Positions 19,416-61,783 of a stretch of DNA of 64,000 nt are shown one piece after another; within the stretch, counting starts at the first letter, position 1; each line of letters starts with the position of its first letter. The stretch spans positions 930,001 through 994,000 of the forward strand of contig NZ_CP109596.1 in assembly GCF_036327755.1 (NCBI RefSeq). The letters run 5' to 3'. A program made the translations under genes and the position numbers. Source of the DNA: Nocardia sp. NBC_01503 (GTDB lineage Bacteria; Actinomycetota; Actinomycetes; Mycobacteriales; Mycobacteriaceae). The notes below the pieces were generated by a model. The model ran no database searches. It was not told the DNA's origin and saw only the letters and a list, made by a program, of their open reading frames with translations.

Positions 19416-20918
19416 TCAGGCGGAGAGGGTTTCCGCCCCGGCAGGCTCTGCCTTGCGGGCCCCGCGCCCGAAGCGCAGGATGCCGTCCTCGATCGCGCCC
19501 TTGCGCAGCATGGTGCGATCGCGGAAGTAGTTGTTGATCACCAGCCACGGACCGCGCGTGCCCTGACGCGGCATGACGCTGTCACCGCGCTGGATGTATC
19601 CGGAGGTGAGCGCACCACCCATGAGCGAAGCCTCGGAACGATCGCCCTCCTGCGGCACCGCGACGACCTCGGTATAACCCTTGGCCTTCATATGGTTCAG
19701 CAGGCGGCAGAAGTACTCCGCGGCCAGATCCGCCTTGAGCGTCCACGAGGCATTGGTGTAGCCGAGGATAATCATCAGGTTGGGCACGTTGCTCAGCAGA
19801 GCGCCCTTGTACGCCACCAGATCTCGCGTCGCGAGCTGCTCACCGTCCACCTCGAGGCTGGCACCGCCCAGCATCTGCACGTTCAGACCCGTCGCACTGA
19901 CCACGATATCGGCCTCGAGCTCCTCGCCCGAGCGCAGTCGAATACCGTTCTCGGTGAAGGTCTCGATGTGATCGGTTGCGATGGAGGCTTTTCCGCTGCG
20001 CAGCGTCTTGAACAGATCACCGTTGGGCACCACGCACAGCCGCTGATCCCACGGGTTGTACGACGGGGTGAAGTGCCGCATATCGATACCGGATCCGACC
20101 TGCGCCCGCACCGCCGCCAGCATCAGCTTGGCGGACAGCTTCGGATTGGTCCGCGACAGTTGGTAACTCGCGCGCTGCAGGGCGATATTGCGCGCCCGCC
20201 CCGCCTTGTAGGCAATGGTCGCGGGCACCTTCGCGAACTTCAGCCCGACCGCGACCGGATCATCGGCGGGCAACGCGGCGATGTAGGTGGGCGAGCGCTG
20301 CAGCATGGTGACGTGCGCGGCCTTATCGCTCATCGCCGGAATCAGCGTGATGGCGGTCGCGCCACTGCCGATGACCACCACGCGCTTACCGGTGTAATCC
20401 AGATCCTGCGGCCAGTGCTGCGGATGCACGATCTGCCCGGTGAAGTTCTCCTCGCCCGGGAACTCCGGACGGAAGCCCTTGTCGTAGTCGTAGTAGCCGG
20501 TGCAGCCGACCAGGAAGTTACTGGTGTAGATCTCGGTCTCACCGGTGCGCTCGTCCAGGGCCTCGACGGTCCAGACCCCGGCCGCGCTGTCCCAGCGGGC
20601 CGTGGTCATCTTGCGGCCGAAGCGAATGCGGTCGGTGACGCCGTATTCGGCGGCGGTGTCCTCCACGTACTGGCGGATGTGCGGGCCGTCGGCGAGCACC
20701 TTGGTGCCGATCCACGGGCGGAAGCCGTAGCCGAAGGTGTACATATCGGAGTCCGAGCGGATGCCCGGGTAGCGGAACAGGTCCCAGGTGCCGCCGATGG
20801 CGGTGCGACGCTCCAGGATCAGATAGCTGCGCCCGGTATTTTCCCTGGTCAGATGGCAGGCCATGCCGATACCGGAGAGGCCCGCGCCGATGATCAGTAC
20901 GTCGACATGCCGCGTCAT
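19416..20918 (-). CDS. EthA-like Baeyer-Villiger monooxygenase
   Basis: A 500-residue FAD/NADPH monooxygenase. It has the FAD motif GAGLSG, the EthA-type block FRYPGIRSDSDMYTFGYGF, the Baeyer-Villiger fingerprint F-x-G-x3-H-x3-W-P (FTGQIVHPQHWP) and the NADPH motif VVIGSGATA. Relatives in mycobacteria oxidise ketones and activate ethionamide; mycolate or hydroxylipid roles have been proposed for some. It follows the AurF-like diiron gene on the same strand with 84 bases between, and probably shares its promoter and the PadR control. It differs from the second BVMO of this window (53731-55299). Confidence 0.9.
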   Translation of the reverse strand: MTRHVDVLIIGAGLSGIGMACHLTRENTGRSYLILERRTAIGGTWDLFRYPGIRSDSDMYTFGYGFRPWIGTKVLADGPHIRQYVEDTAAEYGVTDRIRFGRKMTTARWDSAAGVWTVEALDERTGETEIYTSNFLVGCTGYYDYDKGFRPEFPGEENFTGQIVHPQHWPQDLDYTGKRVVVIGSGATAITLIPAMSDKAAHVTMLQRSPTYIAALPADDPVAVGLKFAKVPATIAYKAGRARNIALQRASYQLSRTNPKLSAKLMLAAVRAQVGSGIDMRHFTPSYNPWDQRLCVVPNGDLFKTLRSGKASIATDHIETFTENGIRLRSGEELEADIVVSATGLNVQMLGGASLEVDGEQLATRDLVAYKGALLSNVPNLMIILGYTNASWTLKADLAAEYFCRLLNHMKAKGYTEVVAVPQEGDRSEASLMGGALTSGYIQRGDSVMPRQGTRGPWLVINNYFRDRTMLRKGAIEDGILRFGRGARKAEPAGAETLSA

Positions 20919-21002
20919 TGGGGTACTCGCTTCGTCTGTTCGCGCCCGGGCTCCGTCGTCCGGGTTCGCCGAATATTATCTGTTATTCGCGGTAACGTCT
21001 AC

Positions 21003-22013
21003 TCACGCTGCCTTACGCTGCGGCTCCGAGCGGTAACGAGTGGCCGGGCCGTCGATACCCAACACCTTCCAGACGGTCTTGGCGATCGGATTCATCAGAC
21101 CGATGCGCTTGGCCAGGGTCCGCACATCGGCGTAGTACCCGGCGAAGGTCTCCTTGGAGTCGGGCAGACCGAAGAAGACGTCCTTGCGCACCCGGTCCGG
21201 AATATCGAACTCCCGGAAGAACGCGCGCGGCGGAATGATGATGGCCCGCCCGCCGATCCACATGACGATCGGGAAGGCCAGCGACAGCACGAACTTGTTC
21301 AGCGGATTCGCCTGCGGGACATGGTGTTCCAAGAACTCGTGGGCGAAGGAGATATGCCGGGCCTCCTCGGCGATATGAATCGCCATGACACCGCGCATGA
21401 TCGGATGCACCTGCTCCCCGGCGCGCAGGATCGACTTCTGGATGTGGTCGATCGGCTCCTCCCCCGAGAGCACGGCGATGAAGAACAGATTCGGGAAGAC
21501 CGCGGCCAGCGGTGGCACCACATAGGTGAGCTTCTTCAGAATCGGCCCCATACCGGGCACATCGCGCCCGATGCGGTTCACCATCTCCTGGAACATGAGG
21601 GTGTGATTGCACTCCTCGATCACCTCGTGGGTGCAGTACCGGAACTCCGGATCACCATTGGCCAGTCTGAAGGTGTGCTGCACCATGCCGCCGATGAGCA
21701 GGGTCTCGAACTGCAGGCCCACCTTGGCGATATTGGCCTGCCGCCACAGCCCGATCTCGATCTTGCGGGCCTCGGAAAGCGCCTGGTACCAAGGGTGCCG
21801 GGCGAACATATCGCCCGCCTTGGGCAGAATCCAGCGCCTATCGCGCGGGTCGACCTGGAAATCCGGGTGGTCCCAATCGATATCGGCGAAAGGATCGAAA
21901 TGCCTGTCGACCGAGCCCTGCGAGAGCAGCAGGAGCTTCTCGGCGTACCGCTGGGCGAGCGCGAACTCCGGATCGGGCTGGGCCGATGTCGTCGTAATGG
22001 ATGCTGACGCCAT
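21003..22013 (-). CDS. AurF-like diiron oxygenase
   Basis: A 336-residue helical protein with carboxylate/histidine motifs of the AurF (p-aminobenzoate N-oxygenase) family: FETLLIGG, EVIEECNHTLMFQE and IAEEARHISFAHE. The family uses a non-haem diiron cluster and O2 for N-oxygenation or related chemistry; most actinobacterial members are uncharacterised and were once labelled metal-dependent hydrolases. ATG 22013 is taken as the start. It heads an operon with the EthA-like BVMO, so two oxygenases may act in succession on one substrate. No ferredoxin gene is adjacent. Confidence 0.85.
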   Translation of the reverse strand: MASASITTTSAQPDPEFALAQRYAEKLLLLSQGSVDRHFDPFADIDWDHPDFQVDPRDRRWILPKAGDMFARHPWYQALSEARKIEIGLWRQANIAKVGLQFETLLIGGMVQHTFRLANGDPEFRYCTHEVIEECNHTLMFQEMVNRIGRDVPGMGPILKKLTYVVPPLAAVFPNLFFIAVLSGEEPIDHIQKSILRAGEQVHPIMRGVMAIHIAEEARHISFAHEFLEHHVPQANPLNKFVLSLAFPIVMWIGGRAIIIPPRAFFREFDIPDRVRKDVFFGLPDSKETFAGYYADVRTLAKRIGLMNPIAKTVWKVLGIDGPATRYRSEPQRKAA

Positions 22014-22046
22014 TGTCAGAGCCTCTCGAGGAGTGACCAAAATAAC

Positions 22047-50541: not shown

Positions 50542-51762
50542 TCAGGCTGCGCGAGTGGCTTTTTCGCCGCGCTGTGCGGTGGAAGCCGCCCGAACGACCG
50601 AGGGCAGCAGCAGGGACATGAGGGTCATGTCCAAGGGTAGTCGGACCAGGTCGAGGCGGTTGTGGACGAAGCCGACCGAGAGGCCGGAGTCGGGATCGGC
50701 CCAGCCGCCGGAGCCGCCCAGGCCCATATGACCGAGGGCGCGGGGTGCTCCGACCGTCGGGAACGGGTGATAGCCCAGATGCCAGAAGGTGAGGCGGTTC
50801 GGGTCGGGGCTGGTGTTGGTGGAGCGGATGAGGGCCCGCGTGGTGCCCGGGGAGAGCAGGCGGGTGTCGCCGCGACAGCCGTCATCGGCGAGAACGGAGT
50901 AGACGCTCGCAATGGCATCGGCGGTGAATACACCGGTGGCGGCGCCGTTCTCGGAGTAGGAGAGCTCCGGAATCGGCCCGCTCAACGCTCGTTCACCGTC
51001 GGTGAAGTGCATGGAGCTGATTATCTTGCCCACGATGGGAACTCGGACGGCCGCGGCGGTAATCGGTTTGCCCAGCCGGGTTCCGGTGAGATCGAGGCTC
51101 GGGCCGACCAGCTCGGCGACCCGGGCGTCATCGGCGGGACGGCCGAGGCTCAGTCCGGTAATGCCCAGTGGTTCAGCGAGTTCGGTGCGATAGAGCTCGG
51201 CCATACTCTGCCCGGTGACCGCACGGCAGAGCCCGCCGAGCAGCCAGCCGAAGGTCACCGCGTGATAGACCGGCAGGCCGCGCGTCCAGTCCGGCGTCGC
51301 CGCGGCCATCCGCTGCTCCATCAGCACATGGTCGAGGACATCGCCGGGCTGCTCGAGCACCCGGCGCAGATCGGAGAGTCCGGCACGGTGTGCGAGCAGA
51401 TCGCGCACGGTGATGGAGTGCTTTCCCCCGGCGGCGAATTCGGGCCAGTACTCCGCGACCGGGGTGTCGTAGTCGAGCAGCCCGCGATCGGCCAGGCGGT
51501 GTACGACCAGCGAGGTGATGCCCTTGGTGGTGGAGAAGGTGAGCGCGCTGGTGTCCTCCTGCCACGGGACCTCGCCCGCCGCATCGGCGGTTCCGGTCCA
51601 GATCCGCACCACCGGTTCACCTCGCAGCCGCACCGAGAGCGCGCCGCCGGTGCGGACATAGCGGGCGAACAGGCGGGCGAAGGCACGGACGGGGGCGGTG
51701 AAGCGCGGGTCCGCGGAACCGCGGATTCCTTCGGGCAGAGTGAGCATGGCGGGCAACCTCAT
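50542..51762 (-). CDS. Beta-lactamase-fold esterase (EstB/LipE-like)
   Basis: A 406-residue cytoplasmic serine hydrolase of the class C beta-lactamase/esterase type: SxxK is STTKG in LTFSTTKGITSL, the second motif lies around YHAVTFGWLLGG, and GHMGLGGSGGWADP is the C-terminal glycine-rich element. Related actinobacterial proteins are carboxylesterases. ATG 51747 is an alternative start. It lies 20 bases after the reductase gene in the same operon and could hydrolyse the ester made by the upstream BVMO. Confidence 0.85.
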   Translation of the reverse strand: MRLPAMLTLPEGIRGSADPRFTAPVRAFARLFARYVRTGGALSVRLRGEPVVRIWTGTADAAGEVPWQEDTSALTFSTTKGITSLVVHRLADRGLLDYDTPVAEYWPEFAAGGKHSITVRDLLAHRAGLSDLRRVLEQPGDVLDHVLMEQRMAAATPDWTRGLPVYHAVTFGWLLGGLCRAVTGQSMAELYRTELAEPLGITGLSLGRPADDARVAELVGPSLDLTGTRLGKPITAAAVRVPIVGKIISSMHFTDGERALSGPIPELSYSENGAATGVFTADAIASVYSVLADDGCRGDTRLLSPGTTRALIRSTNTSPDPNRLTFWHLGYHPFPTVGAPRALGHMGLGGSGGWADPDSGLSVGFVHNRLDLVRLPLDMTLMSLLLPSVVRAASTAQRGEKATRAA

Positions 51763-51782
51763 TGTCGGGCCGGTTCGGGCGG

Positions 51783-52832
51783 TTACTGATCGAAGGTGAT
51801 GTGCAGTTCGTCGGATTCGGGCAGGGTCTGGCAGGCCAGGGTGAGTCCCAGGTCGAGCTCCTCGTCGATGAGGGCCTCATTCATCAGCATGCGCGTTCGA
51901 CCCCGTTCCACGCGACAAACACATGTCCCGCAGGCGGATTCCCGGCAGACGTACGGTGCGTCGATACCGTGTTCGAGCAGGAGGTCCAACAGCTTCTTCC
52001 CGCGCGGCCACGGCAGCTGATGGGTCCGTCCCTCGATCTCGACCCGCACACTGGCGATATCCCCGGCGGGCCGAACGGTGGTCGTGACCACCGGTGCGGG
52101 TGCGGGCTGCTCGAACGGGTTCTCCGTCAGTGAGCGGTACTCCTCCTGGCGGATATCGCGCGCGGATATCCGTGATTGTGCCAGGGCCTGTTTGGTGACC
52201 AGGGCGAAACCGGTTGGCCCGCAGAGGTACACCTCGTAGCCGCGATACGGTTTGACCAGGCCCGCGAGCCCGCGCGCGCTCGGTATACCGCGTTCGGACT
52301 CCAACCAGTGCAGCACGGTGAGCCGCCGCGGATCGCGCCGCACCAGCTCCCGCAACTGGCGGGCGAAGATGATCGATCCCCGGTCGCGATTGGCGTACAG
52401 CAGCACGATTCTCGACCGGCCCATACTCAATGCCGATTTGAGAATGGAGATGACCGGGGTGATACCGCTGCCCGCCGCACAGAGCAGCAGATCGCGATTC
52501 CAGGTGCGCGGCACGAAGTTTCCCGCGGGTTCGAGCACCGTGAGAATCGATCCGGCCTCGATGTTGTCGCAGATCCAGTTGGAGGCGTATCCACCGGGGG
52601 TGCGCTTGACCGTCACGGTGGGCCGGTCATCACAGTGCGGGCTGCTGGAGAGCGAATAGCAGCGCGCCACGGATCCGGTGCGGGTGCTGGGCACCTGCAC
52701 GGTGAGGAATTGTCCAGGGGCGTAGGCGAATCGGCGGGTGAGGTCCTCCGGAATATCGAAGACCAGCGAGACCGCCTCGGCGGTCTCGCTGACAACCTCG
52801 CGCACCTTGATCCGGTGGGCGCGTGCGTTCAT
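51783..52832 (-). CDS. KshB/HmpX-like ferredoxin-NADPH reductase with 2Fe-2S domain
   Basis: A 349-residue flavoprotein reductase. FAD binding is at RCYSLSSSP, NAD(P) at CAAGSGITPVISIL, and the C-terminal plant-type ferredoxin has YVCRESACGTCVCRV and the last cysteine in LACQT. Enzymes of this build pass electrons from NAD(P)H to an oxygenase such as 3-ketosteroid 9-alpha-hydroxylase. No Rieske oxygenase is nearby, but two PF10118 proteins are in the operon and may be its partners. ATG overlaps the SDR stop by four bases (ATGA). Confidence 0.9.
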   Translation of the reverse strand: MNARAHRIKVREVVSETAEAVSLVFDIPEDLTRRFAYAPGQFLTVQVPSTRTGSVARCYSLSSSPHCDDRPTVTVKRTPGGYASNWICDNIEAGSILTVLEPAGNFVPRTWNRDLLLCAAGSGITPVISILKSALSMGRSRIVLLYANRDRGSIIFARQLRELVRRDPRRLTVLHWLESERGIPSARGLAGLVKPYRGYEVYLCGPTGFALVTKQALAQSRISARDIRQEEYRSLTENPFEQPAPAPVVTTTVRPAGDIASVRVEIEGRTHQLPWPRGKKLLDLLLEHGIDAPYVCRESACGTCVCRVERGRTRMLMNEALIDEELDLGLTLACQTLPESDELHITFDQ

Positions 52833-53734
52833 CCGGCTCTCCCCGCGTAGCCGGCCTGCCGCAGCAGCCACGCGCCGCCTGCCTCGATACGCTCCATCGA
52901 AATCGGCTGGGCGATACGGCGATTGACCCCGGGCGCGATTCGCAGCAGGAAGTACCCCAGCCACGCCTCGGTGCGCACCGGCACCACCGCCAGATCGAAG
53001 CGCACCGCGCGCACCACGGCCCGCGCCACCAGATCCGGGCTCATCGGCGAGAACGGCAGGCGTTCCGCGAAATCCTGTACCTGCCTGGCGATCTCCTTAC
53101 CGCGCTCGACCAGCGCCGGATCGACGCCGACGGTGGTGGCGTGGTCGCCGATATTGGTATTGATCACGCCGGGGCAGATGGCGCTCACCCCCACGCCCTT
53201 CGGTGCGAGTTCGAGCCGCAGACATTCGGTGAGCATCTTCACCCCGGCCTTGGAGACCGAGTAGGCCGACATGACCGGTGTCGGCGTGAAGGCCGCAGCG
53301 GAGGCGATATTGACAATGTGACCGCGTTTGCCCTCCTCGATCAGCTGCCGTCCGAAGGCCCGGCAGCCGTAGACCACACCCAGCAGATTGACCCCGAGCT
53401 GATGCTCCCAGTCCTGCGGTTCGAGATCCAAAAACGCGCCGCTGACCAGGATTCCGGCATTGTTGACCAGTACATCCGGCACTCCGAGATCGGCGTGCAC
53501 ATCACGGGCGAAGGATTCCCAGGCCGCCGGATCGGTCACGTCCAGCTGCATGGCCACGGCCCGGTGACCCTGCGCCTGAATCTTCGCGACCGTTGCGAGG
53601 GCGGCGTCCTTGTCGATATCGGAGACCACCACTTGGGCTCCCCCGCGGGCGAAGCGCAGCGCGACCGCACGCCCGATCCCACTGCCGGCACCGGTGACCA
53701 CGACCAGGCTCGGCCGAATGTCATTGATCTTCAC
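52829..53734 (-). CDS. Short-chain dehydrogenase/reductase
   Basis: A 301-residue SDR. The cofactor loop is TGAGSGIG, NNAG follows, and the catalytic pair is Y and K in AYSVSKAG; VSDIDKD after strand 2 suggests NAD(H). A ~50-residue C-terminal extension may associate with the membrane. GTG start overlaps the BVMO stop (GTGA) with GGAGGT upstream. It most likely oxidises a secondary alcohol to the ketone used by the BVMO. Confidence 0.9.
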   Translation of the reverse strand: MKINDIRPSLVVVTGAGSGIGRAVALRFARGGAQVVVSDIDKDAALATVAKIQAQGHRAVAMQLDVTDPAAWESFARDVHADLGVPDVLVNNAGILVSGAFLDLEPQDWEHQLGVNLLGVVYGCRAFGRQLIEEGKRGHIVNIASAAAFTPTPVMSAYSVSKAGVKMLTECLRLELAPKGVGVSAICPGVINTNIGDHATTVGVDPALVERGKEIARQVQDFAERLPFSPMSPDLVARAVVRAVRFDLAVVPVRTEAWLGYFLLRIAPGVNRRIAQPISMERIEAGGAWLLRQAGYAGRAG

Positions 53735-55299
53735 GAGACCTCCTCGGACAGGACGTCCACCTCGCGGGGAAGCGGAGCACCCACGGTGTACCGGTACACG
53801 TCGAGATCGAAATGCCGGTTCTGCCAATACATCTCGCCGTGCGTGGACGGCCGGAACGGGGAATCACCCTTATCGTCGATGTAGTAGGTGTTCGAGCCCG
53901 CGCAGACCGGGGTGAACAGGAAGTTCTTCTCCTGCCGTTTCAGGCATTTCTCGAAGTACTCGTCGTGCACCCGCTGCCGGATCTCGATCTCCGTTGCGCC
54001 CCGGCGATTCGCCTCCGCGATGGCGCGGCTCAGATGCGCGGCGGTGGCCTCGATCATCCAGATGTAGGAGCCCAGCACGAATCCGTAGGGTCCGGTGATC
54101 GTGAAGGCGTTCGGGAATCCGGGTACCGACACGCCCTGATACGACTGGTAGCGATGCTCGTCCCAGAACCGCTCCAGATCGAGTCCGCCGCGACCGCGCA
54201 CCGGGAACGGTGGGATCGCGCCCTTGTCCCAGAGCTTGAATCCGGTGGCGCAGATGAGGATATCGATCTCGTGCTCGGTGCCGTCCGCGGTGACCACACC
54301 GCGCTCGGTGACGCGCTCGATCGAATCGGTGACCAGGCTGACATCATCGCGATTGAATGTCTTCAGATAGTCATTGGACATGGACGGCCGTTTGCAGCCG
54401 AGTCCGTACCGGGGCGTGAGCTTGTCCCGCAGCACCGGATCGTCGATCTGCGAGCGCATCCACCGCCGGATCGGACCCTCGGCCAGGCGTCGGCCCGATT
54501 CGGTGAGCCAGGGCGGCCCCACCACCATCCCGCTCATGGCGACCTCGGTGCCGAGGTTTCCGGCGACGCGCAGGGCGGAGCGAATCCGTCTGCGGCCCAG
54601 TACCTGCCGGCCCAGCCAGCCCACCTCGGCATCATTCTTCGGGAACACCCAGATCGGGGTGCGCTGGAAGACGGTCAGATGCGCCGTCTCCTCGACAATG
54701 GCCGGAATCAATTGCAGGGCGGTCGCACCGGTGCCGATGACCGCCACGCGCTTACCGGCGAGGGAGACATCGTGATCCCACATGGCGGTGTGCACCAGGG
54801 CGCCGCCGAAATCGTTCAGCCCCTCGATATCGGGCATCTTGGGCCGTTCGAGGCCACCGATGGCCAGCACGATATGGCGTGCGGTGAGCTGGTGCCCACC
54901 GTCGGTGCGCAACCGCCACAGACTGTTTCGATCATCGAATGCCGCCGCCACAATGGTGGTGTTCATTCGGAGTTTGTCGCGCAGCCCGTACTTGTCGACC
55001 ATGCTCTCGGCATAGTCGCGAAGTTCGCTGCCGGGCGCGAAGATTCGCGACCAGTCACCGCGCTGCTCATAGGAGAAGCTGTAGATGAACGAGGGGATGT
55101 CCACCGCCACACCGGGATAGGTGTTGGCATGCCAGGTACCGCCGACCCGATCCCATTTGTCGACGATGATGAAGTTGTGAATACCTTTGCGCTGTAGCGC
55201 GATACCGGTGCCTATTCCGCCGAAACCGGCCCCGACCACGATGACCTCGTGATCGGGACGGGCTTCGTCCGGCGCACCGCGGTCGCCGAGACTGTTCAC
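53731..55299 (-). CDS. Baeyer-Villiger monooxygenase
   Basis: A 522-residue FAD/NADPH monooxygenase. FAD motif VVGAGFGGIGTG; Baeyer-Villiger fingerprint F-x-G-x3-H-x3-W-D (FGGALVHTAMWD); NADPH motif VIGTGATALQ; and ICATGFKLWDKG near the C-terminal FAD contact. Inserts oxygen next to a ketone to give an ester or lactone. GTG 55299 with GAGGAGC upstream, 9 bases after the second PF10118 gene. Less than half the sequence blocks are shared with the EthA-like protein at 19416-20918, so it is a different subfamily. Confidence 0.9.
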   Translation of the reverse strand: MNSLGDRGAPDEARPDHEVIVVGAGFGGIGTGIALQRKGIHNFIIVDKWDRVGGTWHANTYPGVAVDIPSFIYSFSYEQRGDWSRIFAPGSELRDYAESMVDKYGLRDKLRMNTTIVAAAFDDRNSLWRLRTDGGHQLTARHIVLAIGGLERPKMPDIEGLNDFGGALVHTAMWDHDVSLAGKRVAVIGTGATALQLIPAIVEETAHLTVFQRTPIWVFPKNDAEVGWLGRQVLGRRRIRSALRVAGNLGTEVAMSGMVVGPPWLTESGRRLAEGPIRRWMRSQIDDPVLRDKLTPRYGLGCKRPSMSNDYLKTFNRDDVSLVTDSIERVTERGVVTADGTEHEIDILICATGFKLWDKGAIPPFPVRGRGGLDLERFWDEHRYQSYQGVSVPGFPNAFTITGPYGFVLGSYIWMIEATAAHLSRAIAEANRRGATEIEIRQRVHDEYFEKCLKRQEKNFLFTPVCAGSNTYYIDDKGDSPFRPSTHGEMYWQNRHFDLDVYRYTVGAPLPREVDVLSEEVS

Positions 55300-55308
55300 C
55301 TGTGCTCC

Positions 55309-56187
55309 TCAGCCGATGCGATCTACGAGTTCGCCCTGAGCGCCGAACAATTCGACCCGCCAGCGCTCGAGCAGCTCGGAGGTGTCGATATCGTCCGGAT
55401 GGAAACCGGGCCGCATATACGGCCGCATCTCCTCGAGCAGGCCCTTCACAATCGGGCCGCGCACCAGTCGAACCGACTGCCGGGCCACCTTGATCGGCCG
55501 CCAGCTGCGCGGATCACTCAGGATCGAGACGAGTACCCCGAGTCCCACCACCGGAATGGTGAGGGCGTAACTGCCCGCCATGAGCCCGATGCGAACCGCC
55601 TCGGAACCACCGCTGGCGCGATAGACGTCGAAGGCGACGGACTTATGCTCGAGCTCCTCGAAGGCGTGCCAGTTGAGCAGGTTCAGCACCTCGGGATCGC
55701 CGGGGAGAGACTGGATCTCGGGTGTGCTGAGCACCCGCTTCGCCAGCGTCGCGGTGTAGTGCTCGGCCAGTGCGGTGACGGCCAGGTGCACCTGGCGCGG
55801 CACCATGTTCTCCACGGCGACCAGTGCGCGTTCGCGCAGTGCGCCGGGTTCGAAGGTGAAGATCCGCACGATCGGGAAGCCCAGCGCGATCAGCTGATCA
55901 TTGAGCACACGATGCTGCTGCCCGTGGACGGCCTCCTGGCCGATGAATCCGGCGACCCGCTTCTTGAGTACGGGATCGGTGATCTCACCGGAGAATTTGC
56001 GCACCGAGCGGATGAAGGATTCCTCGCCGGGCGGGAACGCGCCGGACAGTACGGCGATCAGATGGGTGAGCGGAATATCGCCCTCGGCGAAGATATGCGT
56101 CATGGGTTCGGGCTGCCCGAACCGGAATCGCATACGCCGGACCTTGGGGTAGGGGGTGAGGGACTTGACGTCCTGACCGATCGTCAT
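55309..56187 (-). CDS. PF10118 (predicted metal-dependent hydrolase) family protein, copy 2
   Basis: A 292-residue mostly helical protein. Conserved carboxylates and histidines occur as GEESFIRSVRK, IGQEAVHGQQHR, LAEHYTATL and WHAFEELEHKSVAFDV, a pattern like ferritin-type dimetal centres. The family is named a hydrolase but has no established activity; an oxygen-activating diiron role is a reasonable alternative. It is a tandem paralogue of the gene just upstream, 27 bases away, and shares its motif order throughout. Confidence 0.82.
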   Translation of the reverse strand: MTIGQDVKSLTPYPKVRRMRFRFGQPEPMTHIFAEGDIPLTHLIAVLSGAFPPGEESFIRSVRKFSGEITDPVLKKRVAGFIGQEAVHGQQHRVLNDQLIALGFPIVRIFTFEPGALRERALVAVENMVPRQVHLAVTALAEHYTATLAKRVLSTPEIQSLPGDPEVLNLLNWHAFEELEHKSVAFDVYRASGGSEAVRIGLMAGSYALTIPVVGLGVLVSILSDPRSWRPIKVARQSVRLVRGPIVKGLLEEMRPYMRPGFHPDDIDTSELLERWRVELFGAQGELVDRIG

Positions 56188-56214
56188 TGGTCGGTCCTTT
56201 CTCGATGGAGTTGT

Positions 56215-57075
56215 TTACTTCAGGTGGTCGACCAGGGCACCGTCATCGCCGAAAAGTTCACGCTGCCAACGGTTCAGCAGGGCGGTGGTGTCGATATCGT
56301 CGGGATGGAAGCCGGGGCGCAGATACTTGGCCAGCTCCACCATCAGGCCGCGGAAGATGGGTCCGCGGAACAGGTCGTACGCCTCGCGCGCCACCCGTGC
56401 CGGCTGCTGCCGGGCGACGGGATCGCGGGCCAGCGCGACCGCGAGACTGCCGAAGGTGAACGGCAGCGTCAAGGCGTACATACCCACCATGACCCCGATC
56501 CGCACCGGTTCGGTGCCGCCGACCGCACGGAAGACGTCGAAGGCGACGGACTTGTGTTCCAGCTCTTCGAGAGCGTGCCAGTTCAGCAGATTCCAGAACT
56601 CGGGTGCGGCCGGGATGGACTGGATTTCGGCACTGGAGAGCACGCGTTCGGCCAGTACCGCGGTGTAGTGCTCGGCGGCCGCGGTGGCGGCCAGGTGCAC
56701 CAGCGGCGAGAGCCGGGTCTCGATGCCGAGCATGCGCTCATGCGCGCGCTCGGTGTCGATCCACGCTATGGGATAACCCATTTCGATGAGTTTGTCATTG
56801 AGTTTGCGGTGCTCCTGGCCGTGCGTGGCCTCCTGGCCGACGAAACCGGTGACCCGCTTCTTGAGCAGTGGATCGGTGACACGCTCGGCCACTCGGCGCA
56901 CCGAGCGGATGAAGGATTCCTCACCGGGCGGGAATCCGCCGGAGAGTCCGGCGACGAAATGGCTGAAGACCATATCGCCGTCGACGAAGTACTTGTCGTT
57001 CGAATCGTGTTGGTCGAAGCGGAATCTGATCCGTCTGGCCTTCGGATAGGTACTGACCGCTGGGGCAATTGTCAT
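56215..57075 (-). CDS. PF10118 (predicted metal-dependent hydrolase) family protein, copy 1
   Basis: A 286-residue paralogue of the following gene: GEESFIRSVRR, VGQEATHGQEHR, AAEHYTAVL, WHALEELEHKSVAFDVF and the ending MVELAKYLRPGFHPDDIDTT. The start at 57075 (MTIAP) aligns with the start of the paralogue; ATG 57084 would add three residues. First gene of the six-gene operon; two palindromes lie directly upstream towards the divergent TetR gene. The metal centre and reaction are inferred. Confidence 0.82.
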   Translation of the reverse strand: MTIAPAVSTYPKARRIRFRFDQHDSNDKYFVDGDMVFSHFVAGLSGGFPPGEESFIRSVRRVAERVTDPLLKKRVTGFVGQEATHGQEHRKLNDKLIEMGYPIAWIDTERAHERMLGIETRLSPLVHLAATAAAEHYTAVLAERVLSSAEIQSIPAAPEFWNLLNWHALEELEHKSVAFDVFRAVGGTEPVRIGVMVGMYALTLPFTFGSLAVALARDPVARQQPARVAREAYDLFRGPIFRGLMVELAKYLRPGFHPDDIDTTALLNRWQRELFGDDGALVDHLK

Positions 57076-57086
57076 CTTGGCCATCC

Positions 57087-57113
57087 TTGGTGCAACACCA
57101 AGTACCTAGTACT
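57087..57113. promoter_or_regulatory. Adjacent palindromes, probable TetR operators
   Basis: TTGGTG-CAA-CACCAA (57087-57101) and AGTAC-CTA-GTACT (57101-57113) are both perfect and share one base. They lie between the divergent TetR and PF10118 genes, close to the latter's start. Either or both may bind the TetR protein. Confidence 0.55.
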
Positions 57114-57198
57114 GAGTGTTCGATGTGAAGCCAGTGTAGGATTGTCTCAGACAGCAAGCAAGGGGTGCGCCGTAACGGATCGAATTACAATCTGCCGC

Positions 57199-57903
57199 AT
57201 GGCCTCCCCACCGCGCGATCCACTGCCGGAGGTACGGCAGACCGCGGCGGCGCTCAAAGGCGATGCGCGCCATGATCGCTGGCACTCCCATCGTGCGCTG
57301 GTGCGGGCCGAGCTCATCGAGGCAACCATTCGCGCCATCGACGCGCACGGGCCGGATCTGTCGATCGATGATGTGGTCAAGACCGCCGGTATCCCGCGCC
57401 CCAAGCTGTACCGATTCTTCGGTGACAAGGTGGAGCTGCTGGCCGCGGTGAGCGGGCGGGTACAGGAGTTGATCGTGGAGCGGGTGACGCCGCTCTTCGA
57501 TCCGGCGGCGTCGGCCCGCGAGGCGATTCACACCGCGCTCTCGGCCTATATCGACCTGGTCTCCGAGCGACCCAACCTGTTTCGATTCATTGTCAGCTCA
57601 CATGTGGTGGCGGCCTTCGGGGCGGCACGGCTGATCGAGGATGGGCGGCCGCTCTCGGATTCGGTGGCCGAATTCTTCTCCGCGGTGCTCCGCATGCGCG
57701 GCGCGGACGGTGAGCACACCCAATTCGTGGTGGACGCGCTGCTCGGCGCGGTCGGTCTGGGCGTACTGCGCTGGTTGAACGATCCGGTCATCGACGGCAA
57801 GGAGTTGGCCGAACAGCTCACCCACTTCGCTTGGGGCGCACTGTCTTCCACCGCGGAATCGCGCGGATTGGCCCTCGATCCGGACGCACCGCTGCTCGGC
57901 TGA
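57199..57903 (+). CDS. TetR-family transcriptional regulator
   Basis: A 234-residue TetR protein. The helix-turn-helix spans residues ~33-80 (IEATIRAIDAHGPDLSIDDV, PRPKLYRFFGDKVELLAAV); the rest is a helical ligand domain with ERPNLFRFIVSSH. It has a 30-residue N-terminal extension. Divergent from the PF10118/BVMO operon and so its probable repressor, presumably relieved by the pathway substrate. The frame is open far upstream but that part only shadows minus-strand genes. Convergent with choD. Confidence 0.87.
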   Translation: MASPPRDPLPEVRQTAAALKGDARHDRWHSHRALVRAELIEATIRAIDAHGPDLSIDDVVKTAGIPRPKLYRFFGDKVELLAAVSGRVQELIVERVTPLFDPAASAREAIHTALSAYIDLVSERPNLFRFIVSSHVVAAFGAARLIEDGRPLSDSVAEFFSAVLRMRGADGEHTQFVVDALLGAVGLGVLRWLNDPVIDGKELAEQLTHFAWGALSSTAESRGLALDPDAPLLG

Positions 57904-57942: not shown

Positions 57943-59643
57943 TCACTCGTTGATGGCGATGATCGGCAGGCGCAGCGCCGCCGGAGCGGTCGCCGGTACA
58001 GCGGGATTCGCCGGTGCGATCGGAACGATTCTCCGGTAGGCGGAGCCCGGCTCCGGACGAGCGTCGGGCTCACCTTTGTTCGGCCACAACGAGATCGCCC
58101 GTTCGGCCTGGGCGGTGATGGTCAGGGACGGGTTCACGCCCAGGTTGGCGGAGATGGTGGAGCCGTCGATCACGTGCAGACCGGGGTGGCCGTAGAGGCG
58201 ATGGTAGGGGTCCACCACACCGGTTTCGGGGGAATCGCCGATGGCACAGCCGCCCAGGAAGTGGCCGGTCATGGGGATATTGAAGATACTGCTGGTGAAG
58301 GATCCGGTGGGGATGCCATTGATCTTCCCGGCGACCCGCTCGGCCACCTCGTGACCGGCGGGCACCCAGGTCGGATTGGGCTGACCCTCACCCTGGGTGG
58401 TGGTCATGCGGCGGCCGAAGAGGCCCTTCTTGGTGACCGTCGTGATCGAGTTGTCCACCGACTGCATGACCAGCAGGCCGATCATCTCCTGCGACCAGCG
58501 CCGGGGATTGTGCATTCTCACGAGATCGCGTCTATTGCTCACCAATTCGCGGAGCCAACGGCGGGCGCGCGGTGGTTCACCGCTCACCATGGCGGTGGTC
58601 ATCAGGGCCAGGACATTGCTGCCCTTGCCGTAGCGAACCGGCTCGATATGGGTGTCCGCGTCGGGGTGAATGGAGGAGGTGATGGCCACGCCCTTGGTGA
58701 AGTCGGTTCCCCTGTCTCGACTTCGAACCGCGAGCAGCTCTTCGGAATTGGTGCGCGAGAGGTAGCCGAGCCGGTCGGAGATGTTCGGGAGCGAACCGCG
58801 ATCACGCAGTCGATGCAGTAGCCGCTGAGTGCCGAGTGAGGCCGCCGCGAAGACAACCTGTTCGGCGGTGAACTCACGACGCCGCTTGCGAATCCAGCGC
58901 CCGGTGCGCACGGTCCCGACGGCGTACCCACCACCGGAGAGCGGCCGCACATCGGTCACGGTGGTGAGCGGATGCACTGTGGCACCGGCCTTTTCGGCCA
59001 AATACAGGTAGTTCTTCACCAGCGTGTTCTTGGCATTGTGACGGCAGCCGGTCATACATTCACCGCAGTGCGTACAGCTGCGGCGCTCGGGCCCCGCGCC
59101 GCCGAAGAACGGATCCGGGACATCCTCCCCCGGCCTGCGACCGGGACCGCCGAAGAAGACCCCGACCGGTGTACTCCGATAGGAGTCACCGATTCCCATC
59201 TCGTCGGCGACCTCGCGCAGCACCCGATCGGCGGGTGTGGTGGCCGGATTGGTGGTCACCCCCAGCATGCGGGCGGCCTGGTCGTAATGCGGTGCGAGCT
59301 CGGCCTTCCAATCGGTGATATGCCCCCACTGCCGGTCGGCGTAGAACCGGTCCGGCGGCTGATAGAGCGTATTGGCGTATACCAGCGATCCGCCGCCCAC
59401 GCCCGCACCGCTCATGACGAAGGTGTCCCGCAACAGCGTCAGTCGCTGAATTCCGAAGCAGCCCAGCGCCGGAGCCCAGAGGAACTGCCGTGCCCGCCAC
59501 GACGTCTTGGCGAACTCATGGTCCTCGAACCGGCGGCCCGCCTCCAGCACGCCCACCCGGTACCCCTTCTCGGTCAGACGCAGGGCGCTCACACTGCCGC
59601 CGAACCCCGAACCGATGACCAGGACGTCATAGTCGAATCGCAT
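57943..59643 (-). CDS. choD: ChoD-like GMC oxidoreductase (sterol oxidase family)
   Basis: A 566-residue FAD oxidoreductase. VIGSGFGGSVSALRL is the FAD motif, VMSGAGVGGGSLVYANTLYQ the second GMC block, and the C-terminus has HFLGGCAIGDSPETGVVDPY and GSTISANLGVNPSLTITAQAE with the catalytic His/Asn. It also holds a cysteine cluster (CTHCGECMTGC) seen in the mycobacterial ChoD group. Named a cholesterol oxidase, though activity of some family members on cholesterol is disputed. ATG 59643 is the natural start. The lipase gene lies 221 bases upstream on the same strand. Confidence 0.85.
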   Translation of the reverse strand: MRFDYDVLVIGSGFGGSVSALRLTEKGYRVGVLEAGRRFEDHEFAKTSWRARQFLWAPALGCFGIQRLTLLRDTFVMSGAGVGGGSLVYANTLYQPPDRFYADRQWGHITDWKAELAPHYDQAARMLGVTTNPATTPADRVLREVADEMGIGDSYRSTPVGVFFGGPGRRPGEDVPDPFFGGAGPERRSCTHCGECMTGCRHNAKNTLVKNYLYLAEKAGATVHPLTTVTDVRPLSGGGYAVGTVRTGRWIRKRRREFTAEQVVFAAASLGTQRLLHRLRDRGSLPNISDRLGYLSRTNSEELLAVRSRDRGTDFTKGVAITSSIHPDADTHIEPVRYGKGSNVLALMTTAMVSGEPPRARRWLRELVSNRRDLVRMHNPRRWSQEMIGLLVMQSVDNSITTVTKKGLFGRRMTTTQGEGQPNPTWVPAGHEVAERVAGKINGIPTGSFTSSIFNIPMTGHFLGGCAIGDSPETGVVDPYHRLYGHPGLHVIDGSTISANLGVNPSLTITAQAERAISLWPNKGEPDARPEPGSAYRRIVPIAPANPAVPATAPAALRLPIIAINE

Positions 59644-59864
59644 GCCGGTCACGCTACGACCCGCACGGATGCGCGCGAGAAGGAGCGGCGGCCAGAAAAT
59701 CCACACTTTCGGACATTCGATCAGCGCGATTTCAACCATGGTTCGCTGCCGCTCCCGGCCCCATGCGGCCACCGGTGGTGGCCGTACTGTCTGGCGACGG
59801 TCGCGGTGGTGTCACTCGGCTTGGTGCTGTTCACCTCTCGCGTACTGCACTGGAGCGTCGGGGT

Positions 59865-61031
59865 CTAGGCGCCGCGGCGCAGGGCGACCCGGCCGGACTC
59901 GGCGAACCGATCCGCCAGGAAGCCCAGCGCCGGACGCGCGAAAGACAGTGCGCCGGTGATGTGTTCGCGGCGCGGCATGGAGTGCATGGTCACGTCGACA
60001 CCCAACGCGCGCCAGCTCTCCGCGAGCCGGACGGCCTGCGGATACGGAATGATCTGCTCGGCCGTTCCACCCGCGACCAGCACCGGCGCGGCCGGCGCGA
60101 TATGCCCGAGTTTGTTCTCCCGCAGGCGATCCCGGACCTCCGGCACCTCGAACGGCATCCGATGGCAGTAGCTGGAGACCTGCTTGGGCACGAACGCCCC
60201 CAGGCCGATGCCGACCAGCGCGGCGGGCAGCGCGTGCGTCCGGCGGAAGATCGCGGCCAGCGCCCGGCCATGCGGCTTGAGGTGTTGCATCACATCGAGT
60301 TCCGGATACGCCGCATGCAATCCGACGACACCGTAGAAGAGCAGGAAGGCGTACGGGCTGCCGTCCAGGAAGGCGATCATATCCTCGAGATCGGCGGGCG
60401 CGGAGCCGACCACGCCACCGGCGAGCGGCAGATCCGGGGCGTAGCCGGGCTGCAATTGCAGCGCCCAGCCCGCGGCGCAACCACCCTCGGAGTACCCGTA
60501 GATGCCGAGCGGACCGTTCGGGTCCAGGCCCGCGGCGGACAGGCGGCGGGCGGCGCGAATGCTGTCCAGTACGGCCGGGCCGAGCGAACGCCCCATGACG
60601 TACGGGTGCGTACCCGAATTACCCAGTCCCGGATAGTCGGTGATGGCCAGCGCCCAGCCGCGGCGCAGCGCCGCGGTGATGAAGACCGATTCGTACTCGA
60701 GTCCGAAGCGCAGCTGCCAGGAGGCGGCGGCGACCTTGTCAGCCAGCCCCTGGGTGCCGACGGCGTATCCGATGAGCGGTCGCGAGCCCTCGCCCCGCCA
60801 TGGTTCGCGCGGGACCAGCACCGTACCGGTGACCCGCGTCGGCTGACCCGAGCCGGTGGTCGTGGTGTAGCTGATCCGCCAGGCGCGGGCGGGCAGTTTC
60901 ACCCCGGGCAGCAGGTACGCCGTCATCGGCTCCGCCGCCAGCAGTCGACCGGGACCGAGCCCGCCGAATGCCGCCGTGGAGTCTCCGGCACCGACCGCCG
61001 CCTCGTCGAAGCGGTTGGTGAACGCAGTCAT
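59865..61031 (-). CDS. Secretory-lipase-family (PF03583-like) hydrolase
   Basis: A 388-residue alpha/beta hydrolase. YGYSEGGCAAGWALQ contains the nucleophile serine; AGYAPDLPLAGG-type text and the ending with PRREHITGALS give the probable acid-base partners. Family members are triacylglycerol lipases, mostly exported; here no signal peptide is seen from ATG 61031 (AGGGCAGG upstream), so it may be cytoplasmic or leave by another route. Longer starts run into non-conserved sequence. Adjacent to the sterol oxidase gene. Confidence 0.82.
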   Translation of the reverse strand: MTAFTNRFDEAAVGAGDSTAAFGGLGPGRLLAAEPMTAYLLPGVKLPARAWRISYTTTTGSGQPTRVTGTVLVPREPWRGEGSRPLIGYAVGTQGLADKVAAASWQLRFGLEYESVFITAALRRGWALAITDYPGLGNSGTHPYVMGRSLGPAVLDSIRAARRLSAAGLDPNGPLGIYGYSEGGCAAGWALQLQPGYAPDLPLAGGVVGSAPADLEDMIAFLDGSPYAFLLFYGVVGLHAAYPELDVMQHLKPHGRALAAIFRRTHALPAALVGIGLGAFVPKQVSSYCHRMPFEVPEVRDRLRENKLGHIAPAAPVLVAGGTAEQIIPYPQAVRLAESWRALGVDVTMHSMPRREHITGALSFARPALGFLADRFAESGRVALRRGA

Positions 61032-61237
61032 CGTCGCCTGCCCTTCTCGCACAAACATCGCTATGCAGTTGTCGCACAATCGAATCCGAACGTTAACACT
61101 GTCCGGGACAGTGCGGCATCCCGCCAACGATACCGAAAATGAGAGAAAGTGCCAGGTTAAGTCGCGGCAGCTCCCACTCGGTGGGACTGCGATCTTCGAT
61201 GCGAAATACCCGCCCGCCGCGGCGCGTTCCCCGCAGG

Positions 61238-61783
61238 GTGACCACACCCCTGCGCATTCTGCTGATCTCGGGCAGCACCCGGGACAGCTCCACCAATACC
61301 GCCGCACTGCGCACCATCGCCGCGGAGGCGCCGGCCGATCTCACCGCGACGCTCTACGCCGGATTGGTCGAGCTGCCGCAGTTCGTCCCCGGTCTCGAAC
61401 CCGAACCCGCGAATGTCGAGGCGCTGCACAAGCAGTTGGCCGATTCCGACGCGGTGCTCATCTGCACACCGGAGTACGCGGGCATGATTCCGGGGAGCCT
61501 GAAGAATCTGCTCGAATGGACGGTCGGCACCGGGGATCTGATGGACAAGCCGGTGGCGTGGATCAATGTGGCGTACCCGGGGCGCGGGGACGCCGCCGTC
61601 GAAACCCTCAGCACGGTGTTGGGTTACGTCAGCGCCGATATCGTCGAGGTCGCGTGCGGGCGCATCACCGTGCTACGCGAACAGGTCGGCGCGGACGGAC
61701 TGGTCGAGGATGACCAGGCGCGGCAGCGGCTGAGCCTGGTATTGCCCGCGATTGCCGCGCATGTGCGCGAGAAGGCCGCCTGA
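61238..61783 (+). CDS. NADPH-dependent FMN reductase
   Basis: A 181-residue flavodoxin-fold protein. ISGSTRDSSTN is the FMN phosphate loop and CTPEYAGMIPGSLKNLLEW the second FMN site, both typical of the SsuE/ArsH-like reductases. Uses NAD(P)H to reduce FMN or quinone-like compounds. The GTG 61238 start matches the family N-terminus; ATG 61199 would add 13 residues. A hairpin terminator follows before the exporter gene. Confidence 0.87.
   Translation: MTTPLRILLISGSTRDSSTNTAALRTIAAEAPADLTATLYAGLVELPQFVPGLEPEPANVEALHKQLADSDAVLICTPEYAGMIPGSLKNLLEWTVGTGDLMDKPVAWINVAYPGRGDAAVETLSTVLGYVSADIVEVACGRITVLREQVGADGLVEDDQARQRLSLVLPAIAAHVREKAA

Follow-up and report, generated by a model that had tools for sequence, protein, structure and literature searches.

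Gene content and layout of the operon

A 64,000-nucleotide stretch of the genome of Nocardia sp. NBC_01503 (contig NZ_CP109596.1, positions 930,001 to 994,000 of the forward strand), hereafter the window, was found to hold an operon of six genes arranged around two proteins of the Pfam family PF10118 (Metal_hydrol), which we call PFa and PFb. The operon occupies window positions 50542-57084 on the minus strand, and its transcription order is PFa, PFb, a Baeyer-Villiger monooxygenase (BVMO), a short-chain dehydrogenase/reductase (SDR), a reductase and an esterase. The gene identities and their coupling are seen in the sequence itself: 27 bp separate PFa from PFb, 9 bp separate PFb from the BVMO gene and 20 bp separate the reductase and esterase genes; the BVMO and SDR genes overlap by GTGA (SDR start near 53734), and the SDR and reductase genes overlap by ATGA (reductase start at 52832). 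A first-pass annotation of the same DNA had described six coupled genes of these families with a divergent TetR gene, and the Pfam, NCBIfam and motif results agreed with it in family, place and strand.

PFa (56215-57084, minus strand) and PFb (55309-56187, minus strand) scored 230 and 221 bits, respectively, against the PF10118 profile, whose cut-off is 33.2, and the two proteins are 57% identical. The PFa start is probably the second ATG, at 57075, which has AAGG upstream. The best relative found for the window was Nocardia acidivorans, in which PFa is 94% identical. The BVMO (53731-55299, minus strand), a predicted FAD/NADPH enzyme, carries the fingerprint FxGxxxHxxxW(P/D) as FGGALVHTAMWD and the Rossmann motif GAGFGG; its phmmer matches include phenylacetone and cyclohexanone monooxygenases, with a best E-value near 1e-74, and by its fingerprint and Rossmann motifs it is a type I BVMO. 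The SDR (52829-53734, minus strand; PF00106, 188 bits) contains the motifs TGAGSGIG (TGxxxGxG) and YSVSK (YxxxK) and resembles the C-terminal half of PRK05855 (EphD-type) fusion proteins (NF004514, 340 bits, under the cut-off), although it lacks their hydrolase domain.

The next gene encodes a putative NAD(P)H:[2Fe-2S] reductase (51783-52832, minus strand) in which the FAD, NAD and [2Fe-2S] domains are all present (FAD_binding_6, NAD_binding_1 and Fer2), together with the FNR motif RCYS and a plant-type CX4CX2CX29C-like [2Fe-2S] motif. Its top NCBIfam model was PaaE (211 bits, under the cut-off of 421) and no equivalog cut-off was reached, so the PaaE/KshB/VanB type is a family-level assignment. 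The same level applies to the EstB/LipL label of the last protein (50542-51762, minus strand), a putative serine esterase of the class C beta-lactamase fold with the SxxK motif STTK, which scored 199 bits against PF00144 and 396 bits against its top NCBIfam model, EstB/LipL (NF052353; cut-off 650). The first-pass annotation had also remarked that the reductase has no other oxygenase to serve. Consistent with this, no further oxygenase besides the self-sufficient BVMO was recognised between 44.7 and 62 kb, where the tested genes were examined with Pfam and the rest by eye.

The TetR regulator (about 57199-57903, plus strand) consists of TetR_N and TetR_C_46 domains and has a FasR-like C-terminal domain (FasR model 53 bits, under the cut-off). 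Between this gene and PFa, just upstream of the latter, we found an imperfect, strandless palindrome of 27 bp (57094-57120), AACACTCAGTAC-TAG-GTACTTGGTGTT. It was the single site in the 8.5-Mb genome when up to three mismatches were allowed, and the reversed control gave none; a shared regulon based on this palindrome was ruled out, as the genome has no second site. Of 69 distinct upstream regions of orthologues, 31 contain the core AGTAC-N0-9-GTACT, compared with 0.5% of random 200-mers from the same loci. These observations support the palindrome as a dedicated candidate operator, presumably bound by the neighbouring TetR protein.

Fold and predicted metal ligands of the PF10118 proteins

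The AlphaFold2 (AF2) models of PFa and PFb were all-helical and of high confidence (pLDDT 92.6 and 92.5; pTM 0.89). A Foldseek comparison of PFa with the PDB revealed the R2-like ligand-binding oxidase (R2lox) as the first match, with a probability of 1.00, an E-value of 0.019 and a TM-score of 0.47, followed by aldehyde-deformylating oxygenase (ADO), ribonucleotide reductase R2, acyl-acyl carrier protein (ACP) desaturases and AurF. The top 45 PDB matches were all ferritin-like, and nearly all were dimetal proteins. In the PFb search, R2-like, AurF and R2lox entries came first, at lower TM-scores (0.3-0.4), and acyl-ACP desaturases were again among the matches. Judged from these models, the likeness of both proteins is at the superfamily level and none of the matches is close; a sequence search of the PDB with PFa as the query gave no match.

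Residue conservation provided stronger evidence than the fold matches. Our comparison of PF10118 covered 46 diverse members of actinobacterial and proteobacterial origin, among them sequences of Acinetobacter, Burkholderia and Indioceanicola and a number of deep paralogues from the window's own genome. No variation was found at E55, Q84, E85, H88, H92 and E138 (PFa numbering), and W169, H170, E173, E174, E176 and H177 were likewise fixed, the exception being one truncated sequence. The resulting pattern is E...QExxH...E...HxxEExxH. In the PFa model, the helices 38-64, 72-101, 127-150 and 161-176 bear E55, E85xxH88, E138 and E174xxH177, respectively, with H177 sitting just beyond the end of the last helix. 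Both AF2 models put E55, E85xxH88, E138 and H170xxEE174xxH177 on long helices that follow one another. The predicted ligands are most likely E55, E85, H88, E138, H170, E174 and H177, with Q84 and E173 in the second sphere. The conserved E/H motifs to which the first-pass annotation had drawn attention are thus supported, in confident models, as a complete diiron-type ligand set on four core helices, from which we infer the metal content.

Two other identities of these proteins were considered and rejected. The metal-dependent hydrolase of the database entry, which has the family name in its favour, was ruled out by the fold matches and ligand set of diiron oxygenases and would leave the reductase partner unexplained; we regard it as extremely improbable. 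A catalytically dead partner role for one of the two copies was ruled out by the full ligand set in both PFa and PFb, and also because the PFb copies of Nocardia and Mycobacterium group together in a well-supported clade of their own.

Conservation of the chain and the reductase partner

We surveyed 70 non-redundant PFa-type loci from Nocardia, Mycobacterium and close genera, counting same-strand genes up to 6.5 kb downstream. A second PF10118 gene was present at 54 loci, a BVMO at 48, an SDR at 51, a reductase at 31 and an esterase at 5. Because of this conservation, a chance grouping of the operon genes is excluded. The PFa-BVMO-SDR core is kept across both Nocardia and Mycobacterium. Additionally, two deep and separate PF10118 clades, that of the window and that of loci L001 and L116, both contain the combination PF10118-reductase-BVMO-SDR, which is difficult to account for if the products do not act together. 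In Mycobacterium sp. IS-3022, a rearranged duplicate cassette (locus L020, 98-6393; BVMO-SDR-PF10118-SDR-BVMO plus a PF10118 fragment) precedes a full cassette by about 4 kb.

The hydrolytic step is more variable. The EstB-type esterase is restricted to the close relatives of the window. In a Mycolicibacterium locus (L040), an alpha/beta hydrolase sits between the SDR and the reductase, perhaps in the role of the esterase, and elsewhere PF10118-reductase operons encode an EphD-like protein that unites hydrolase and SDR, as at another locus of the window's genome (L087), in Mycobacteriaceae locus L049 and in Dietzia. A hydrolase beside the SDR is recurrent, not universal. The first-pass annotation had called the operon a candidate for a complete one; this has to be qualified, since the esterase is confined as described and many mycobacterial copies have no reductase of this type close by.

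The link between PF10118 and the reductase was evident on several scales. The 8.5-Mb genome of the window has 10 genes of the reductase family and five PF10118 loci with six PF10118 genes, and at four of these five loci the reductase gene adjoins PF10118 or shares its gene string; by a rough estimate (about 10 targets in 8.5 Mb), the chance of finding one within a few kb is about 1% or less per locus. PF10118 was uncommon among the sampled actinobacteria (13 of 247 genomes), and a reductase was nearby at 12 of the 20 PF10118 loci outside the window's genome. A co-occurrence of PF10118, reductase, BVMO and SDR across actinobacteria, which the first-pass annotation had put forward as a check, was borne out by this count and by those for the BVMO and SDR among the PFa-type loci. 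Plasmid copies showed similar arrangements: PF10118-PDR/VanB-BVMO-SDR preceded by aldehyde dehydrogenase (ALDH) and acyl-CoA ligase genes in Rhodococcus, EphD-like-PF10118-PDR/VanB-TetR in Dietzia, and PF10118-PDR/VanB followed directly by a limonene-epoxide-hydrolase (LEH)-like gene in R. fascians.

Epoxidation is a serious alternative to hydroxylation as the first step because epoxide-hydrolase-type genes adjoin PF10118-reductase pairs in relatives. The pair would then act as an alkene epoxidase, with the epoxide or diol as the source of the ketone, and the original chemistry would be that reflected in the EphD-like and LEH neighbours of relatives. The EphD-like fusions at L087, in Dietzia and at L049, the LEH-like gene of R. 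fascians and the resemblance of the reductase to PaaE, which serves a diiron epoxidase, fit this explanation. In contrast, the window operon contains no epoxide hydrolase, a BVMO and SDR without a hydrolase fusion better suit a secondary alcohol, and the EphD-like fusion might have an esterase as its alpha/beta half. We consider this explanation, which differs in step one only, rather unlikely.

PF10118 genes were also seen in other surroundings. On M. avium plasmid pP2-4a (L118, 8001-15169), one lies near a BtrH_N/DUF4872 protein, an acyl-CoA ligase and an R2-like ligand-binding oxidase, and on an Acinetobacter plasmid PF10118 likewise has a BtrH_N gene nearby, with a P450-ferredoxin-reductase set a short distance away. 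Two tandem PF10118 genes in A. baumannii (L114, 7995-9988) are directly downstream of rpsL-rpsG-fusA-tuf and have no reductase. On an A. baumannii plasmid (L117, 1644-8876), PF10118 ends a MSMEG_0567-0572/Nit6803 nitrogen-starvation cluster.

Proposed pathway and comparison with known systems

We propose, with a probability of roughly 0.6, that PF10118 is an uncharacterised family of ferritin-like diiron oxygenases feeding the subterminal oxidation of a lipid or hydrocarbon by way of ketone and ester, under TetR control. Electrons from NAD(P)H would pass through the FNR-[2Fe-2S] reductase to the PF10118 diiron site, which would activate O2 and oxidise an unactivated carbon of the substrate, most likely by hydroxylation and possibly by epoxidation. 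From the secondary alcohol so formed, the SDR would make a ketone, which the BVMO would turn into an ester by inserting oxygen, and the esterase would release an alcohol and an acid, the latter entering beta-oxidation; the dedicated TetR protein would control the operon through the palindrome upstream of PFa. The electron transfer, oxygenase activity, order of steps and substrate are what we infer here, along with TetR binding. Bacterial subterminal alkane degradation to ketones is reported to have always involved BVMOs (PMC4192553). Beyond the TetR gene, the window contains a cholesterol-oxidase-like GMC protein (CholsOx model 626 bits, cut-off 850) and a LIP-family secretory lipase (57943-61307, minus strand), and since both are found again close to the cassette in several Nocardia, the region may be an island for lipid use.

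Several observations weigh against this proposal. The Foldseek E-values are weak (best 0.019) and the TM-scores low (about 0.47 for PFa and 0.3-0.4 for PFb), part of the PFb matches are non-diiron, unrelated proteins, and the sequence homology to AurF is not significant taken alone (hhalign at most 18%). No activity of PF10118 was found in the literature under PF10118, COG3687 or the operon, in a search that most subscription journals lay outside. In many mycobacterial cassettes no gene of this reductase family lies close by, and the protein would have to be supplied from another site. Nor does a reductase adjoin those proteobacterial copies that were examined, which like the rest of the non-actinobacterial picture come from plasmid records; the reductase is for these reasons not a universal partner of PF10118. 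Finally, the alcohol or ketone used by the SDR and BVMO could be supplied from elsewhere.

The last point is central to another explanation, in which PF10118 is a ferritin-like dimetal protein with a different role, such as an R2lox-like oxidase, an N-oxygenase or a protein of peroxide or iron handling, and the chain starts from an external alcohol or ketone. R2lox is the nearest fold to PFa, the relatives of AurF are N-oxygenases or hydroxylamine oxidases (PMC9478400), and the proteobacterial PF10118 copies stand alone. However, in two separate PF10118 clades operons repeatedly join the gene to that of an oxygenase-type reductase and to BVMO and SDR genes, which argues against such a role, and we judge it distinctly unlikely. 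An anabolic operon, in which the PF10118 pair would oxidise or desaturate an acyl-ACP, acyl-CoA or long envelope lipid, the SDR and BVMO would modify that lipid, for example by introducing a keto or ester group, and the hydrolase would edit it, also appears unlikely. It would agree with the kinship of the SDR to the SDR half of EphD-type proteins, studied as mycolic-acid enzymes, with the FasR-like TetR protein, with the acyl-ACP desaturases among the fold matches and with a distribution mainly in mycolate-bearing genera. An esterase or alpha/beta hydrolase plus a single-operon repressor suits catabolism, however; on the Rhodococcus plasmid, ALDH and acyl-CoA ligase genes precede the copy, and PF10118 is present in proteobacteria and cyanobacteria too.

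Within the diiron-oxygenase proposal, we lean somewhat towards a more specific form: PF10118 would be a misnamed family whose members oxygenate C-H or C=C bonds at a diiron site of AurF/CylC-like type with three His and four Glu. A dedicated FNR-[2Fe-2S] reductase would serve it in Mycobacteriales, where a tandem two-copy form would initiate a subterminal oxidation route that uses no P450, AlkB, Rieske or soluble multicomponent diiron monooxygenase. The suggestion in the first-pass annotation that PF10118 is the oxygen-activating component gained from the ligand set in the models and the wide co-occurrence, but the substrate and exact chemistry lie beyond this evidence. Its "undescribed oxygenase class" is better put as an uncharacterised family that would lie within the known ferritin-like diiron oxygenases and have an AurF/CylC-like site. 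If the proposal is correct, a Pfam family annotated as hydrolases would turn out to consist of diiron oxygenases whose redox partner is named and whose ligands are predicted, and a first-step oxygenase would be added to lipid and hydrocarbon breakdown in Nocardia, Mycobacterium, Rhodococcus and Dietzia.

The downstream chain resembles the acmAB/mekAB-type operons for propane, acetone and ketones, which proceed from alcohol to ketone to ester to fragments through a BVMO plus an esterase; AcmB was a weak match of the window esterase. These routes begin with known first-step oxygenases or with ketones, not with PF10118. The pathway logic from the ketone onward is already known, and the family of the first-step enzyme would be new.

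Upon comparison with R2lox, PFa shares the pattern E...ExxH...E...ExxH and a GEE motif at the first ligand, in addition to having R2lox as its top fold match. In contrast, the TM-score is about 0.47, the R2lox site has only two histidines, and R2lox is not known to have a reductase partner or a well-defined physiological substrate. The Ribonuc_red_sm (PF00268) profile matched neither PFa nor PFb, and hhalign gave 0.4-0.7% against R2lox.

AurF, CmlI and DnfA bind their metals through Glu, Glu-xx-His, Glu and His-xxx-Glu-xx-His, a 3-His/4-carboxylate set that in DnfA comprises E88, E123, H126, E182, H209, E213 and H216 (PMC9478400). PF10118 shares the helical bundle and the predicted three His and four Glu, including H170xxxE174xxH177. 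DnfA is an AurF-family diiron oxidase encoded with the FNR-[2Fe-2S] reductase DnfB (PMC9478400), a published precedent for a reductase encoded beside such an enzyme. Alignment of PF10118 with actinobacterial AurF proteins by hhalign was weak (3-18%, p 0.0013-0.013), with the seven ligands in register, and no comparable match was obtained with acyl-ACP desaturases (p 0.34). The ligand spacings, 30/53/36 in PF10118 versus 31/51/32 in AurF, are a more independent point than the alignment because such columns partly drive profile alignments. The differences are that PF10118 is a separate Pfam family (AurF being PF11583), that its Q84 occupies the place of AurF D135, and that its gene neighbours indicate carbon rather than nitrogen oxidation. 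The PF11583 profile matched neither PFa nor PFb, for which a Pfam search gave PF10118 alone, and neither profiles nor hhalign placed PF10118 directly in the AurF, R2lox or desaturase families. Elsewhere in the window (19419-22040, minus strand), an AurF-family protein (PF11583, 333 bits) is encoded directly upstream of a BVMO/flavin-containing monooxygenase (FMO)-like flavoprotein on the same strand, and a weak AurF-like gene adjoins BVMO genes on M. chubuense plasmid pMYCCH.01.

The CylC/NocO dimetal halogenases, which attack unactivated sp3 C-H bonds, have the motifs QExxH and HxxDExxH; in NocO, alanine variants of nine proposed active-site residues lost activity, and variants of six proposed ligands bound less iron (PMC12101540). 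Compared by published motif only, PF10118 has the same QExxH, and HxxEExxH replaces HxxDExxH. CylC differs in that its substrates are ACP-bound acyl chains, within natural-product clusters, and that one carboxylate position is predicted to stay free for chloride (PMC12101540). If our proposal is correct, PF10118 would provide a new point of comparison for how an AurF/CylC-type site chooses among N-oxygenation, chlorination and C-H hydroxylation.

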